Below the pieces are notes generated by a model. That model did not search any database and was not told the origin of the DNA. It saw only the letters and a list, made by a program, of their open reading frames with translations. The translations under genes and the position numbers were made by a program. This document shows positions 43,952-51,041 of a DNA stretch of 64,000 nt, in pieces (the stretch's first letter is position 1; each line of letters starts with the position of its first letter). The stretch covers positions 1-64,000 of the forward strand of contig NZ_JAERQJ010000015.1 of assembly GCF_016735115.1 (NCBI RefSeq). Direction: 5' to 3'. Source of the DNA: Aquimarina mytili. GTDB lineage: Bacteria > Bacteroidota > Bacteroidia > Flavobacteriales > Flavobacteriaceae.

Positions 43952-44039
43952 GCTGAAATTATAAGTGTACTCTTAAAAAATGATCATTTCATGGAGTAGT
44001 TTTATTCCTTAATAATTTTATGGTAAAGGTGTATTAGTG

Positions 44040-44047
44040 TATCTTTG
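44040..44047 (+). promoter_or_regulatory. -7 promoter element for pta-ackA
   Basis: TATCTTTG matches TAnnTTTG exactly, 19 bases before the pta ATG at 44067. It excludes the in-frame ATG at 44037, which lies upstream of the element. Confidence 0.55.
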
Positions 44048-44066
44048 CATCACCAAATTTAACCAC

Positions 44067-46160
44067 ATGAGTAAAGCCGTTTATATTGCTACTATTGAAC
44101 CTAATAGTGGTAAATCTATTGTTGTTTTAGGGATGATGCGTATGCTACTTGGTAAAATAGCCAAAGTAGGATATTTTAGACCTATTATTGACGACCCTGC
44201 ATCAGGAGAAGTAGACAACCATATTAATACCGTGATATCCCACTTCGAGCTAGATATCAATTTTAAAAATGCATATGCATATACCCGCAGCGAAGTATTA
44301 CAGAAATATAATCAAGGAAAATCAGGAGAGATAATTGATGGTATCATTAGAAAATATAAAAGCCTTGAAGAAAAATTTGATTTTATTCTTGTAGAAGGTA
44401 CTGACTTTTCTGATGAAGGCAGCATTATTGAATTCGATATTAATGTAATTATTGCCAAAAATCTAGGAATACCTGCAATTATCGTTGCTAGTGGTATTGA
44501 CAAAAAGAATGAAGAAATTGCAGGAAATCTGAAATTGGCTTTCGATACGTTTAACAGCAAAGATGTTGAGGTTTTGGCTATGGTGGCTAACAAAGTGACA
44601 CCAGGTTGCGAACAAGAATTGAACACTGCTTTTGAAAAGAATTTTAAAAATGGAGTAGAGAGAATAATCATACCAAGGGTAAATTCTTTGATCAATCCTA
44701 CCATTAAAGAAATTGTAAACGAACTAGATGGTACCGTTTTATTTGGGAAAGAGTATTTGAATAACCAAGCAGGTAATTTTGGAGTAGGAGCTATGCAATT
44801 GCGTAATTATCTTACCCATCTTAAAGAAAACAGTTTGGTGGTAACACCAGGAGATCGCGCTGATATTATTTTGGGAGTATTGCAGGCTAACATTTCAGAT
44901 AATTACCCTAAAATCTCTGGAATTATACTTACTGGAGGAATTATCCCTGAAAAGCCTATTCTTAAATTAATTGAAGGAGTTTCGATATCATTTCCGATTA
45001 TATCTGTTCCTAGTGGAACCTTTTCCATTACAAATCAAATAGGAGCCATCAAATCAAAAATATATGTCGATAACCTGCAAAAGATTAATACTTCAATAAG
45101 TACATTCGAAAAATATGTAGATGAAGACCATTTGGCTGATCGATTGATTACTTTCAAATCTGAAGGATTAACTCCGCGTATGTTTCAGTATAACTTATTG
45201 AGAAGAGCCCTGCAACATAAAAAGCATATTGTACTGCCAGAAGGAGCCGATGAAAGAATCCTAAGAGCTACATCCAGATTATTGGCTTCTGATGTAGTTG
45301 AGATTACATTAATTGGTGATCAGAAGAAAATAAAAAACAAGGCTGTAAAACTTGATATTCCTATTGATTTTAATAAAGTAAATATTGTTTTTCCTACCGA
45401 ATCTCCATATTATGATGACTATGTGCAGACATTTTATGAGTTAAGAAAACATAAGAATGTAAATCTTGATATGGCCAAAGACATGATGGCAGATGTTTCG
45501 TATTTCGGTACAATGATGATTTATAAAGGTCATGCCGATGGTATGGTATCTGGAGCGATACACACCACTCAACACACCATAAGGCCTGCATTACAATTTA
45601 TCAAAACTAAACCAGGGGTAAAAGTAGTTTCTTCTGTCTTTTTTATGTGTTTAGAAGATCGTGTGTCTGTGTTTGGAGATTGTGCAATTAATCCAAATCC
45701 TAATGCTGAACAATTGGCAGAAATTGCAATTTCTTCTTCAGAATCGGCTTCGGCTTTTGGCATAGAGCCTAAGGTAGCAATGCTGTCGTACTCTTCAGGA
45801 ACTTCTGGAAAAGGAGCAGACGTAGAAATTGTAAGAGCTGCCACTACAATTGTTAAAGAAAAACGACCCGATCTTAAAATTGAAGGACCGATACAATACG
45901 ATGCCGCTGTAGATATGAAGGTCGGACAAAGTAAGCTTCCCGATTCTGAAGTAGCAGGGCAAGCCAGTGTTTTGATATTTCCGGATTTGAATACCGGAAA
46001 TAACACGTATAAAGCAGTACAAAGAGAAACTGGTGCATTGGCCATTGGCCCAATGTTACAGGGACTAAATAAACCAGTTAATGATTTAAGCCGTGGATGT
46101 ACAGTAGATGATGTATATAATACCGTTATTATTACGGCGATCCAGGCGCAGGGATTATAA
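44067..46160 (+). CDS. pta: Phosphate acetyltransferase, long form
   Basis: A 697-residue enzyme that converts acetyl-CoA and phosphate to acetyl phosphate. It has an N-terminal P-loop (BioD-like) domain with EPNSGKS, then a DRTGG-type middle domain (about 205-310). The C-terminal catalytic PTA_PTB domain (from about 375) has VLPEGADERIL, DGMVSGAIHTT and YSSGTSGKG. This is the long, regulated enterobacterial-type architecture. The ATG at 44067 begins SKAVYIATIEPNSG, as in homologues; a frame start 10 codons earlier lies before the -7 box. It is followed 18 bases later by ackA. Confidence 0.95.
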   Translation: MSKAVYIATIEPNSGKSIVVLGMMRMLLGKIAKVGYFRPIIDDPASGEVDNHINTVISHFELDINFKNAYAYTRSEVLQKYNQGKSGEIIDGIIRKYKSLEEKFDFILVEGTDFSDEGSIIEFDINVIIAKNLGIPAIIVASGIDKKNEEIAGNLKLAFDTFNSKDVEVLAMVANKVTPGCEQELNTAFEKNFKNGVERIIIPRVNSLINPTIKEIVNELDGTVLFGKEYLNNQAGNFGVGAMQLRNYLTHLKENSLVVTPGDRADIILGVLQANISDNYPKISGIILTGGIIPEKPILKLIEGVSISFPIISVPSGTFSITNQIGAIKSKIYVDNLQKINTSISTFEKYVDEDHLADRLITFKSEGLTPRMFQYNLLRRALQHKKHIVLPEGADERILRATSRLLASDVVEITLIGDQKKIKNKAVKLDIPIDFNKVNIVFPTESPYYDDYVQTFYELRKHKNVNLDMAKDMMADVSYFGTMMIYKGHADGMVSGAIHTTQHTIRPALQFIKTKPGVKVVSSVFFMCLEDRVSVFGDCAINPNPNAEQLAEIAISSSESASAFGIEPKVAMLSYSSGTSGKGADVEIVRAATTIVKEKRPDLKIEGPIQYDAAVDMKVGQSKLPDSEVAGQASVLIFPDLNTGNNTYKAVQRETGALAIGPMLQGLNKPVNDLSRGCTVDDVYNTVIITAIQAQGL

Positions 46161-46178
46161 AAAAAATAAAAAAGGGAA

Positions 46179-47363
46179 ATGCAAATACTAGTATTAAACT
46201 CAGGAAGCTCTTCTATAAAGTTTCAATTATTTTCTATGCCACAAGCACGAGTAATTTGTTCTGGTCTTGTAGAGCGTATTGGTTTAGAAAATGCTAAAAT
46301 CACATATACTTCTAAGAAAGATGAAATAGAAAAAATAGGCATAATTAAAAATCATCAAGAGGGGTTGCACTTGATAGCTAAATATTTGATGAGTACTGAA
46401 GTGGGAGTGATAAAATCTGCTTCAGAGATACATGCCGTTGGTCATCGAGTAGTGCATGGTGGTAGTACTTTTGCCGATACAGTCGAAATTACTGAAGAAG
46501 TGAAACAAAAGATCACTAAGTTATCGGCTTTGGCACCTTTGCATAATCCGGCGAATTTAGAAGGGATTTTAGTGGCCGAAGAAATTTTTCCGGAAGCGAA
46601 ACAAGTGGCCGTTTTTGATACAGCTTTTCATCAAACTATTCCTGTTGAAGCTTATAAATATGCCATTCCAAATAAATTTTTGATAGAAAACAATATAAGA
46701 GTGTATGGTTTTCATGGGACTAGTCATAAGTATGTATCGGAAAAAGCAATTCAATATCTAGAAAAACCGAAATCCAAAATTATAACAATTCATTTAGGAA
46801 ATGGTTGTAGTATGACTGCGGTTAAGAATGGAAAGAGTATTGATCATACCTTAGGTTTTGCTCCCATGAATGGATTAATCATGGGGACACGATCAGGAGA
46901 TATTGATCCCGCAGTAATATTTTACATGGTAAATTCTTTAGGGTATTCATTAGATGAGGTAAATACACTATTACAAAAGGAAAGCGGAATGCTTGGACTT
47001 ACAGGGTATAGTGATCTTCGTGATATTGAGTCAGAAGCAGAAAATGGTAATGAAGATTGTATCTTGGCCTTAAAAATGAATGCATACCGTATCAAGAAGT
47101 TTATTGGGGCTTATGCTTCAGTAATGAGCGGCTTAGATGCCATAGTCTTTACAGCGGGTATTGGAGAAAATTCGGATGTGGTACGAGAATTAGTGTGTGA
47201 AGATCAAGAGTTTTTAGGAATTCAATTGGATAAAGAAAAAAATAAGAAACGATCAAAAGAAACAAGAGATATTAGTACTTTGTCCTCAAAAGTGAAAATT
47301 CTTGTAATCCCAACAGATGAAGAATTTGAGATAGCTAAACAGTCTTTCAATTTGCTTGCATAA
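46179..47363 (+). CDS. ackA: Acetate kinase
   Basis: A 394-residue ASKHA-fold kinase that makes acetate and ATP from acetyl phosphate and ADP. Family signs are LNSGSSSIKFQLF at the start, GHRVVHGG, FDTAFHQTIP, GFHGTSHKYV, HLGNGCSMTAV, GTRSGDIDPA and FTAGIGENS. It sits 18 bases behind pta in the classical pta-ackA operon and has an A/G-rich stretch (AAAAAGGGAA) before the ATG, one of the few Shine-Dalgarno-like sites here. A symmetrical terminator follows. Confidence 0.97.
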   Translation: MQILVLNSGSSSIKFQLFSMPQARVICSGLVERIGLENAKITYTSKKDEIEKIGIIKNHQEGLHLIAKYLMSTEVGVIKSASEIHAVGHRVVHGGSTFADTVEITEEVKQKITKLSALAPLHNPANLEGILVAEEIFPEAKQVAVFDTAFHQTIPVEAYKYAIPNKFLIENNIRVYGFHGTSHKYVSEKAIQYLEKPKSKIITIHLGNGCSMTAVKNGKSIDHTLGFAPMNGLIMGTRSGDIDPAVIFYMVNSLGYSLDEVNTLLQKESGMLGLTGYSDLRDIESEAENGNEDCILALKMNAYRIKKFIGAYASVMSGLDAIVFTAGIGENSDVVRELVCEDQEFLGIQLDKEKNKKRSKETRDISTLSSKVKILVIPTDEEFEIAKQSFNLLA

Positions 47364-47453: not shown

Positions 47454-47642
47454 TTATGCCCAAATACAACTTCCATTAGGTTGACAATATCCATAATCGC
47501 AAAATACAAATCCGCTAGGAGTAGTAATACAGCATTGTCTTGGACCACCACAATAAGGTCTGCCAAAATTTGATCCAATCACTTCCTGTTGCTCTTTTTT
47601 TGTGAGTTCATGAACTCCATTAAGTTTTAAAATTTTTTTCAT
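47454..47642 (-). CDS. Cysteine-rich peptide precursor with glycine-type leader (copy A)
   Basis: A 62-residue peptide with a leader MKKILKLNGVHELTKKEQ and a predicted cut after VIG (residue 23), followed by a 39-residue core with six cysteines (C31, C37, C38, C48, C53, C59). The C terminus FCDYGYCQPNGSCIWA matches copy B in cysteine spacing (C-x4-C-x5-C) and ends in an aromatic-Ala pair. The leader is like the double-glycine or natural-product precursor leaders of Bacteroidetes, cut by C39-peptidase ABC exporters. No exporter or modifying enzyme lies in the window. It could be a secreted disulfide-rich bacteriocin or another modified peptide. Confidence 0.72.
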   Translation of the reverse strand: MKKILKLNGVHELTKKEQQEVIGSNFGRPYCGGPRQCCITTPSGFVFCDYGYCQPNGSCIWA

Positions 47643-47794
47643 TAGTAATAAGTATTAAAGAGTTAATATGTAAAGATTACTTCTAAAAATATTGTAAAGT
47701 GTTGGAAATAAAAAAGGTATGTTCTTGACATTTATAAATTTCAACTACTTAATGAATTATTATGGGGGTATGAAGAAGAGCTTCGATTTTAAAG

Positions 47795-47820
47795 AAAAAA
47801 GACAAACTATAAGTTTGCCT
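47795..47820 (-). terminator. Terminator of the second cysteine-rich peptide gene
   Basis: On the minus strand AGGCAAACT (47820-47812) pairs with AGTTTGTCT (47808-47800) over a 3-base loop with one G-U pair, followed by a T-rich run. Its sequence closely resembles the hairpin at 47368-47394. Confidence 0.72.
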
Positions 47821-47923
47821 TTACTCAATAATCGAGATTTAAATGCTCTGAGGCCTGCCACGAAATCAAAATTATTTTCCAACCGATGCCTTGCGGACTA
47901 GCCCTGAGGTAGTTTGCTTCTAT

Positions 47924-48109
47924 TTATGCAAAAATGCATCGCCCCCAACGGTCACAATATCCGGGTTCGCAGAAGGTTTGTCCTCCCCATCCAATAAGGC
48001 ACCCTCTACCAGATGGGCAACATCTCGCTCTAGAAGATGCACCTCTAACTTGCTTTTGCTGTTCTTTATTTAGTTCATGAACACCAGTTAAATTTAAAAT
48101 TTTTTTCAT
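47924..48109 (-). CDS. Cysteine-rich peptide precursor with glycine-type leader (copy B)
   Basis: A 61-residue paralog of the gene at 47454-47642. The leader MKKILNLTGVHELNKEQQK keeps the same pattern and ends at VRG (residue 23). The core of 38 residues has six cysteines (C30, C31, C37, C47, C52, C58) and is rich in Arg and Gly. The C terminus FCEPGYCDRWGRCIFA matches copy A at all three last cysteines, at GYC and at the final Ala. The middle of the core has diverged, with the CC pair shifted, as expected for peptides under diversifying selection. A perfect inverted repeat lies just upstream of the ATG. Confidence 0.72.
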   Translation of the reverse strand: MKKILNLTGVHELNKEQQKQVRGASSRARCCPSGRGCLIGWGGQTFCEPGYCDRWGRCIFA

Positions 48110-48461: not shown

Positions 48462-51041
48462 ATGAAAAAAGTACTACTATTTATGCTGGTAGTATGCACT
48501 ATGGGATATAGTCAGGTGCCGGCATATTACAACGATGTAAATCTTAATTTATCCGGAAATGCTCTTAAAAATGAATTAGGAGCAAAAGTAACGAATACTC
48601 ATACAACTTTTCTAACCTATACTCCTGGTGTTTGGGAGGCCCTGAAACAAACAGATTTGGATCCAACTAATGCATCAAAAGTGATTTTGATTTATGGATA
48701 TAATGACACCGATGGAAACTCTACTACAGATAGAACAAGAGGAGTCGATAATAATGGAGGGGGATCTACAGATTGGAATAGAGAACATGTGTATCCTAAA
48801 TCATTAGGAACTCCAAACTTAGGTACAGAAGGACCAGGTGCAGATGCGCATCATTTAAGACCTGCAGATGTACAACGTAATTCTTCCAGAGGAAATAGAA
48901 AGTTTGCAGACGGATCCGGAAACTCTGGTGCCACAGGTCAAGGACACTGGTATCCGGGTGATGAGTTTAAAGGCGATGTTGCTCGTATGATGATGTACAT
49001 GTATATACGATATCCAAATCGTTGCTTACCTACTAATGTAGGTATAGGAACAACGGCAAGTGGAGACAGTAATATGCTTCAGTTGTTTCTTGAATGGAAC
49101 GCAGAGGATCCGGTTTCACAATTAGAATTACAGCGCAATCCATTGTTAGAAAATATACAAGGCAATAGAAATCCATTTATTGATAATCCTGCTTTTGCAA
49201 CGCAAATTTGGGGTGGACCACAAGCCGAAGATAGATTTGGAAATACAGGAGGTGGAACAGATACTACAGCTCCAAGTACACCTACAAATCTTGTTGCTAG
49301 TAACACTACTCAAACTTCAACAGAATTAACCTGGAATGCTTCTACAGATAATGTTGGAGTCACTGGGTATTTTGTGTATCAAAACGGAGGGTTTATGACC
49401 TCTACAGTTTCGCCAACTTATGTTGTAACTGGATTAACTGCAAATACCAGTTATACTTTTTCAATAAAAGCTAAGGATGCTGCAGGAAATGTGTCTTCCT
49501 CAAGTACAGTAATTAATGTGACTACTCAAGACAATACTTCAGGAGGAGGAAATGCAACAGAGTTGTTCTTTTCTGAGTATATTGAAGGCTCTTCAAATAA
49601 TAAAGCATTAGAAATAGCAAACTTTACCGGAACCTCTAAAAACCTTTCTGGATATGTGATTAAAAAACAAACTAATGGAGCCGGGTCTTGGTCAGGTGGG
49701 TTATCCCTTTCTGGAAGTTTAGCGAATAGCGATGTATATGTGGTTGCTAATAGTTCGGCATCTACAACGATTAAAAATCAAGCCGATGTTTTATCATCTT
49801 CTACCGAAATGGTGTTTAATGGAAATGACGCTGTAGGATTATTTAAAAACGGAGTTTTAATTGATATTATAGGAACATTTAATGGGGGTTCATCTAATTT
49901 TGCAAAAGATGTAACATTAAGAAGAAAAGGAACTGTCTCAGCTCCTTCTGCAACATATACAACATCTGAATGGGATTTGTATCCTCAAAATACTTTTGAT
50001 GATTTGGGAAAGCATACTTTCAATGGAGGAGGAGGTAGTGCGGATACTGTTGCGCCCTCAGCACCTACAAATCTGATTGCATCTAATGTAAATGAAACTA
50101 GTGTCCGCCTTTCATGGACCGCTGCAACTGATAATATTGGGGTTTCTGGTTATAATGTGTATCGAGACGGAGCGTTAATAACTACTGTAACGGGTACCTA
50201 CTATAATGTTACTGGGTTATCTCCTGGTACAACCTATACGTTTGAAGTAAATGCATATGATGCCGCTCAAAATACCTCTACATTAAGTAATTTGGTTTCA
50301 ATAACCACACAAGATGTGGTGATTTCGTATTGCGCGTCAAAAGGAAATACTACCAATTACGAGTTTATTGATTATGTTGGTATAGGTGGGATTTCCAATG
50401 CTACAGGAGCAAATGGAGGATATAGAGATTTTACATCTCTAGTAGGAAATCTTCCTTATGGTACAAATACGATTGTATTAAGCGTTGGATTTGTTAGTTC
50501 TTCTTATACAGAACATTGGGGAGTATGGATTGATTTTAATAAAAACGGAACCTTTGAATCTTCTGAAAAAGTTGTGACTGGATCTACATCAAGCTCGGGA
50601 AATTTGTCATATAACTTTACGGTCCCTTCTAGCACTCAAGCGGGTAGTACCCGAATGAGAGTTTCCATGAAATGGAATGGAGCTCCTACTTCTTGTGAAA
50701 CCTTTGGATATGGAGAGGTAGAAGATTATACTGTTAACATTGGAAGCACAGCAGCTAGAGCAAAAGGATTTATAGAAACAAATATTGATGGAAAATTAGA
50801 GCAAGAAAATAAGGTGTATACCGCAAACGTATATCCTAACCCTGCAAAGAACTATATTAGTATAGGGACTACAGATAATAGAGAAGTAGAGTATAAGTTA
50901 ATCGATTTAAAAGGAAGTGTCATCAAGTTTGGAACAACTACGAGAAGTACTATTCCGGTAGGAGACATTAAACGCGGCATGTACATCTTAGAAATTAATA
51001 ACAATGGAAGAATTATTTCAGAAAAAGTTATTTTTGAATAA
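48462..51041 (+). CDS. T9SS-exported endonuclease I with FN3, lamin-tail and GEVED domains
   Basis: An 859-residue modular protein. After a signal peptide (1-18, ending GYSQ) comes an EndA/NucM-type nuclease (about 20-262) with WNREHVYPKS, DAHHLRP and NSSRGNRKF. Then follow an FN3 domain (about 270-355), a lamin-tail-like domain (about 365-470: ELFFSEYIEGSSNNKALEI, E367 onward), a second FN3 (about 530-617), a GEVED domain (about 620-755, GEVEDYTVNI) and a type A T9SS sorting domain (about 785-859, YPNPAKNYI to IISEKVIF). It would be secreted or surface-bound and degrade extracellular DNA or RNA for nutrients or biofilm turnover. The gene is monocistronic. Confidence 0.9.
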   Translation: MKKVLLFMLVVCTMGYSQVPAYYNDVNLNLSGNALKNELGAKVTNTHTTFLTYTPGVWEALKQTDLDPTNASKVILIYGYNDTDGNSTTDRTRGVDNNGGGSTDWNREHVYPKSLGTPNLGTEGPGADAHHLRPADVQRNSSRGNRKFADGSGNSGATGQGHWYPGDEFKGDVARMMMYMYIRYPNRCLPTNVGIGTTASGDSNMLQLFLEWNAEDPVSQLELQRNPLLENIQGNRNPFIDNPAFATQIWGGPQAEDRFGNTGGGTDTTAPSTPTNLVASNTTQTSTELTWNASTDNVGVTGYFVYQNGGFMTSTVSPTYVVTGLTANTSYTFSIKAKDAAGNVSSSSTVINVTTQDNTSGGGNATELFFSEYIEGSSNNKALEIANFTGTSKNLSGYVIKKQTNGAGSWSGGLSLSGSLANSDVYVVANSSASTTIKNQADVLSSSTEMVFNGNDAVGLFKNGVLIDIIGTFNGGSSNFAKDVTLRRKGTVSAPSATYTTSEWDLYPQNTFDDLGKHTFNGGGGSADTVAPSAPTNLIASNVNETSVRLSWTAATDNIGVSGYNVYRDGALITTVTGTYYNVTGLSPGTTYTFEVNAYDAAQNTSTLSNLVSITTQDVVISYCASKGNTTNYEFIDYVGIGGISNATGANGGYRDFTSLVGNLPYGTNTIVLSVGFVSSSYTEHWGVWIDFNKNGTFESSEKVVTGSTSSSGNLSYNFTVPSSTQAGSTRMRVSMKWNGAPTSCETFGYGEVEDYTVNIGSTAARAKGFIETNIDGKLEQENKVYTANVYPNPAKNYISIGTTDNREVEYKLIDLKGSVIKFGTTTRSTIPVGDIKRGMYILEINNNGRIISEKVIFE

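Follow-up and report, generated by a model that had tools for sequence, protein, structure and literature searches.

Predicted double-glycine precursors of six-cysteine peptides form a family in Aquimarina and are probably exported and oxidised in trans

Two six-cysteine precursor genes and their surroundings

The window, which is the whole stretch of 64,000 nucleotides from Aquimarina mytili that was analysed, carries two small precursor genes on the reverse strand, located between two conserved flanks with the following features:

44037..47363, (+): conserved flank, genes for a 707-aa phosphotransacetylase-like and a 394-aa acetate kinase-like protein (pta-ackA), named from reading of the sequences
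47454..47642, (-): gene 1, ORF with an ATG start, type 1 precursor of 62 aa
47571-47642, (-): leader of gene 1, residues 1-24, followed by the core (residues 25-62, C-x5-CC-x9-C-x4-C-x5-C)
47798..47822, (-): terminator-like hairpin downstream of gene 2
47924..48109, (-): gene 2, ORF with an ATG start, type 2 precursor of 61 aa
48038-48109, (-): leader of gene 2, residues 1-24, followed by the core (residues 25-61, CC-x5-C-x9-C-x4-C-x5-C)
48462..51041, (+): opposite conserved flank, 859-aa secreted nuclease-like protein with fibronectin-type repeats and a C-terminal sorting signal, as read from the sequence

With a slash at the expected cut, the precursor of gene 1 reads MKKILKLNGVHELTKKEQQEVIGS / NFGRPYCGGPRQCCITTPSGFVFCDYGYCQPNGSCIWA and that of gene 2 reads MKKILNLTGVHELNKEQQKQVRGA / SSRARCCPSGRGCLIGWGGQTFCEPGYCDRWGRCIFA. 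Start codons of both genes are unambiguous because an in-frame stop lies 5-7 codons upstream of the ATG, with no alternative start between. Both precursors contain six core cysteines and a glycine at residue 23, and in a search of the 5.0 Mb genome one finds the other with E = 1.1e-10. The hairpin downstream of gene 2, one found against 0.7 expected by chance, faintly suggests that the two genes have separate transcripts. Promoter-like sites near them occur at chance level and a promoter signal is not established. Scans of Pfam and NCBIfam returned no family for either gene, and a scan of viral contigs gave nothing with gene 1 and one 15-residue match with the core profile.

In AlphaFold2 models both cores are predicted to contain short beta strands in a compact beta core, with pLDDT of about 80 for type 1 and 85 for type 2. 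Foldseek and VIA-align searches of the PDB found no matching fold at E below 0.001 and, for type 1, none at a Z of 2. A weak Foldseek row for the PAF/PAFB fold (E 2.1) is not significant, and rows for an insulin-like growth factor (E 0.017) and uS5 (E 0.6) in a profile search of PDB sequences were taken as chance.

A family with two cysteine frameworks in a conserved slot

Family matches with E below 0.001 are present in 47 of the 66 Aquimarina genomes, or 46 of the 58 near-complete ones, with the cysteine spacing kept and all six cysteines retained, and relatives of gene 1 share 54-73% identity across the genus. Together with the ORFs and the mutual match, this distribution establishes as real the two small six-cysteine genes proposed in the preliminary description, which had been made from the letters of the window. 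Named relatives come nearly all from Aquimarina, with the addition of one Tenacibaculum strain, one Flavobacteriaceae bacterium and one "Bacteroidia bacterium" MAG. When a full-length profile was applied at family level, 18 of 397 genomes matched at 1e-5; strong matches were restricted to Aquimarina and one other genome, and the rest mostly follow the leader. A core-only profile searched in 395 genomes of the class matched only the source genome and one other genome, the same as the full-length outlier. By sequence comparison the peptides are a previously unnamed family, kept by most Aquimarina species.

Two frameworks can be distinguished within the family. For the type 1 framework, C-x5-CC (gene 1), an alignment of 19 sequences has the six cysteines among its invariant columns, and for the type 2 framework, CC-x5-C (gene 2), none of the six cysteines varies across 61 aligned sequences. 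The spacing of the last three cysteines, FC-x2-GYC-x3-G-x-C-I-(W/F)-A, is common to both peptides, as had been described. The middles, earlier regarded as diverged, do differ, but they differ because the peptides represent two separate conserved cysteine frameworks. Arrays vary from 1 to 6 genes across species, often with one type 1 and several type 2 members. Two family members appear broken, one by an in-frame TAA (L028:1501-1683) and the other as a truncated 40-aa type 2 copy (L069:6001-6123).

The usual arrangement in the genus is a tandem array in one conserved slot beside pta-ackA. This slot is orthologous, since the acetate kinase-like gene flanks the array in 48 related loci and the gene for the 859-aa secreted protein in 31; the phosphotransacetylase-like gene was found in 29 related loci with 84-96% identity. 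In three species, small genes of another leader type, MKKK..IK.LKL.K.TI...GG, weakly matching lant_leader_L1a, are located inside six-cysteine arrays (L017:977-1135, L039:2198-2347 and L041:1981-2130).

Median dN/dS values, obtained by a simple counting method from sequence pairs that are not independent, were 0.23-0.33 for leaders and 0.33-0.35 for cores, and point to purifying selection on leader and core of both subfamilies. Core values in this range argue against a freely varying core, and hence the "variable core" of the preliminary description gives way to cores that are conserved in both subfamilies (dN/dS about 0.33).

A predicted double-glycine leader shared with dispersed precursors

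Double-glycine motifs include Gly-Ala and Gly-Ser, and the ComA consensus consists of Leu-12, Glu-8 and Leu-7 (PMC6363468). Leaders of genes 1 and 2 have L at -12, I/V at -4, G at -2 and A/S at -1, gene 1 ending in GS and gene 2 in GA, and nearly all family members end in GA, GS or GG. From the ComA positions, L-12 is found in both genes and E-8 in gene 1 only, with Q at -7 in both, and Gln is usual at -7 in Aquimarina leaders. In G384, a genome of another genus, the family member reads LSKEELSEIHGA and shows the whole pattern L-12 S-11 E-8 L-7 I-4 G-2 A-1. By its motif the leader is therefore classed as double-glycine type, and because G23-[A/S]24 is the Gly-Ala/Gly-Ser form of the site, the cut is expected after residue 24 and not, as proposed earlier, after residue 23.

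A leader-only profile of 24 positions matched the genome at 11 sites with E up to 7e-4, genes 1 and 2 among them. Ten of the 11 were inspected in full and contain 6, 6, 4, 6, 6, 4, 4, 4, 5 and 2 core cysteines. Judged by these matches, no fewer than eight precursors in the source genome, besides genes 1 and 2, carry this leader in front of different cores that contain cysteines. The earlier view of both genes as precursors of secreted peptides with a common leader is supported. At G000:C23:665090-665771, directly after what reads as a response regulator gene, three precursors with this leader and different cysteine cores stand in a row, the first of which has a near copy at C10:7712.

Possible role of the peptides

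The most likely role would be bacteriocin-like, at a little under an even chance, followed by signalling, which is distinctly less likely, or another extracellular task. C39-exported cysteine-rich peptides could act as species-level signals or cell-surface factors instead of antimicrobials, and purifying selection on the core, the fixed syntenic locus in most species and the lack of any recognised immunity gene beside the six-cysteine arrays agree with such a function. This explanation is nevertheless rather improbable: species differ in copy number, with 1 to 6 genes, in the way often seen for competition genes, the arrays have no adjoining receptor or regulator, and bacteroidetocins kill even though they too have no immunity genes (PMC6671954).

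Exporter and C39-like/VKOR/thioredoxin fusion on another contig

A search for a C39 exporter elsewhere in the genome was suggested in the preliminary description, and one was found on another contig. This single complete C39 peptidase-ABC exporter (PCAT) is encoded at C1:834112-836316 with an HlyD protein, and has a C39 domain (PF03412, E 1.2e-33) plus ABC domains. Adjoining it is the gene for a 526-aa fusion of C39-like, VKOR and thioredoxin domains, in which, by reading of the sequence, HPTYPS aligns with the catalytic stretch KDCGPTC of the exporter and hence lacks the cysteine. The exporter locus also holds a further GG precursor and, between the fusion and this precursor, a DUF6734 protein (G000:C1:837946-839229), which may be part of the maturation set. 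In G045 (L101) a 440-aa protein resembling this DUF6734 protein comes after the fusion. The conserved PCAT-HlyD locus has SusD-like, outer-membrane and alpha-amylase-like genes next to it (G000:C1:839947-844425, L139-L146) in most Aquimarina genomes viewed.

Orthologues of the exporter and of HlyD are present in all eight other species checked, with exporter identity of 86-92%, and three of these species (G013, G008 and G031) contain no exporter besides this PCAT. Many genomes have several PCATs, and the partner can be assigned clearly only in genomes with a single one. Among 57 sampled genomes, all 40 with peptides have a fusion and an exporter; of the 17 without peptides, 10 are devoid of a fusion and 6 of any PF03412 match. 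Co-occurrence of fusion and peptides gave a Fisher p of 4.5e-7, a value that ignores the relatedness of the genomes and is confounded by phylogeny and genome size, the association of LanB being similar. The fusion of the source genome shares only about 33% identity with the copy found in most species, and hence "fusion" denotes a protein type and not one orthologue. Its neighbourhoods in other species hold GG precursors, which in G013 and G008 have the same leader type, e.g. MLKNILQLNGVQELNKEQKSKLSGG.

The six-cysteine peptides have no physical link to this machinery, and no relatives of the PCAT or the fusion were found among the ORFs of 50 named related loci with flanks up to 6 kb. Together with an exporter on another contig, this supports the earlier suggestion of processing in trans.

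Proposed maturation and its alternatives

The two genes are best read as double-glycine precursors of small secreted disulfide-rich peptides, which are probably exported in trans and would contain three disulfides. The C39 domain of the PCAT, acting with HlyD, would recognise the 24-residue leader, cut after Gly-Ala or Gly-Ser and export the 37-38-residue core. The fusion, a membrane protein, probably recognises the same leaders and would oxidise the six cysteines to three disulfides, with an expected mass loss of 6 H, and about ten dispersed precursors that carry this leader would share the machinery. The fusion, located beside the exporter and with a C39-like domain that has no catalytic cysteine, is a natural candidate for the disulfide-forming protein. 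Guilt by association, namely its occurrence beside GG precursors, is the main support for disulfide formation. Where the preliminary description had left a choice between three disulfides and thioethers, disulfides are favoured, because the fusion adjoins the exporter and same-leader precursors mostly have an even number of cysteines.

A more specific mechanism can be put forward tentatively, in which the C39-like domain of the fusion would bind the double-glycine leaders of dispersed precursors and so couple export to ordered disulfide formation. If such a leader-tethered oxidase operates, one exporter/oxidase pair would, in trans, mature a whole library of cystine peptides present across the genus. 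A literature search for papers joining VKOR, C39 and bacteriocins gave nothing relevant. The C39-like/VKOR/thioredoxin protein is a candidate factor for maturing disulfide peptides in Bacteroidota. The unnamed family itself is spread over a marine genus with a reputation for natural products, where mining by gene cluster could miss it because the machinery is not beside the genes.

Thioether maturation is unlikely. The peptides would in that case be lanthipeptides, with a distant LanB/LanC pair dehydrating Ser/Thr and forming thioethers before the C39 exporter cuts the leader. The genome does encode a Lant_dehydr_N protein (C6:14544-16505) and a LanC-like protein (contig C41), LanB presence correlates with the peptides, and a few arrays in other species have neighbours resembling a class I lanthipeptide leader. 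However, both proteins are on contigs separate from the peptides and no six-cysteine family member lies in their regions; lant_leader_L1a, with its cut-off of 22 bits, gives 10.7 bits for gene 2 and does not match gene 1, and no core Ser/Thr is conserved as strongly as the cysteines. Moreover, LanB is absent from two peptide carriers that are both 99% complete (G013 and G054), and hence thioethers are not needed for the family. The lanthipeptide reading accordingly has a very small probability. The TIGR04149 model of rSAM-modified RiPPs matched neither gene at E up to 10. Least probable of all is an exported metal-binding peptide whose cysteines bind zinc, iron or copper, to which six invariant cysteines including adjacent CC pairs would be suited, since the machinery found beside same-leader precursors is a thiol-oxidising fusion and the two frameworks shift one cysteine yet keep six, as expected of disulfide pairs.

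Comparison with known systems

The fungal antifungal proteins PAF and PAFB resemble the Aquimarina peptides in their small, beta-rich, cysteine-stabilised cores, but the structural match is not significant and no sequence relation was found. Class I lanthipeptides of Bacteroidota (lant_leader_L1a) likewise have a short leader with a Gly-Gly-like end, and such genes occur in a few arrays, but the Aquimarina peptides fall below the model cut-off, have no LanB/LanC nearby and include the two carriers devoid of LanB. The double-glycine bacteriocin precursors of AMS/PCAT systems share the Gly-Ala/Gly-Ser leader end and Leu at -12, and there, too, a single transporter may handle many cores behind a common leader (PMC6363468). 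Unlike them, the Aquimarina precursors have Gln and not Leu at -7, and a core unrelated to any Pfam/NCBIfam family.

Bacteroidetocins, anti-Bacteroidales peptides of Bacteroidota, use a C39 exporter and a thiol oxidoreductase presumed to make their disulfides, have no immunity gene and kill relatives (PMC6671954). Bacteroidetocins A and B contain four cysteines in contrast to six in the Aquimarina peptides, their leaders measure 15-16 aa in comparison with 24 aa to the end of the motif, and a transmembrane protein, peptide, oxidoreductase and exporter are encoded in one cluster, whereas the Aquimarina arrays are far from the machinery (PMC6671954). Hence neither the shared cluster nor the 15-16 aa leader of bacteroidetocins is seen in Aquimarina. 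Both groups nevertheless comprise small cysteine peptides of Bacteroidota with a glycine-ended leader, a C39 ABC exporter, a thiol oxidoreductase presumed to form disulfides and no recognised immunity gene, and by this analogy bacteroidetocins would be the nearest precedent for function.
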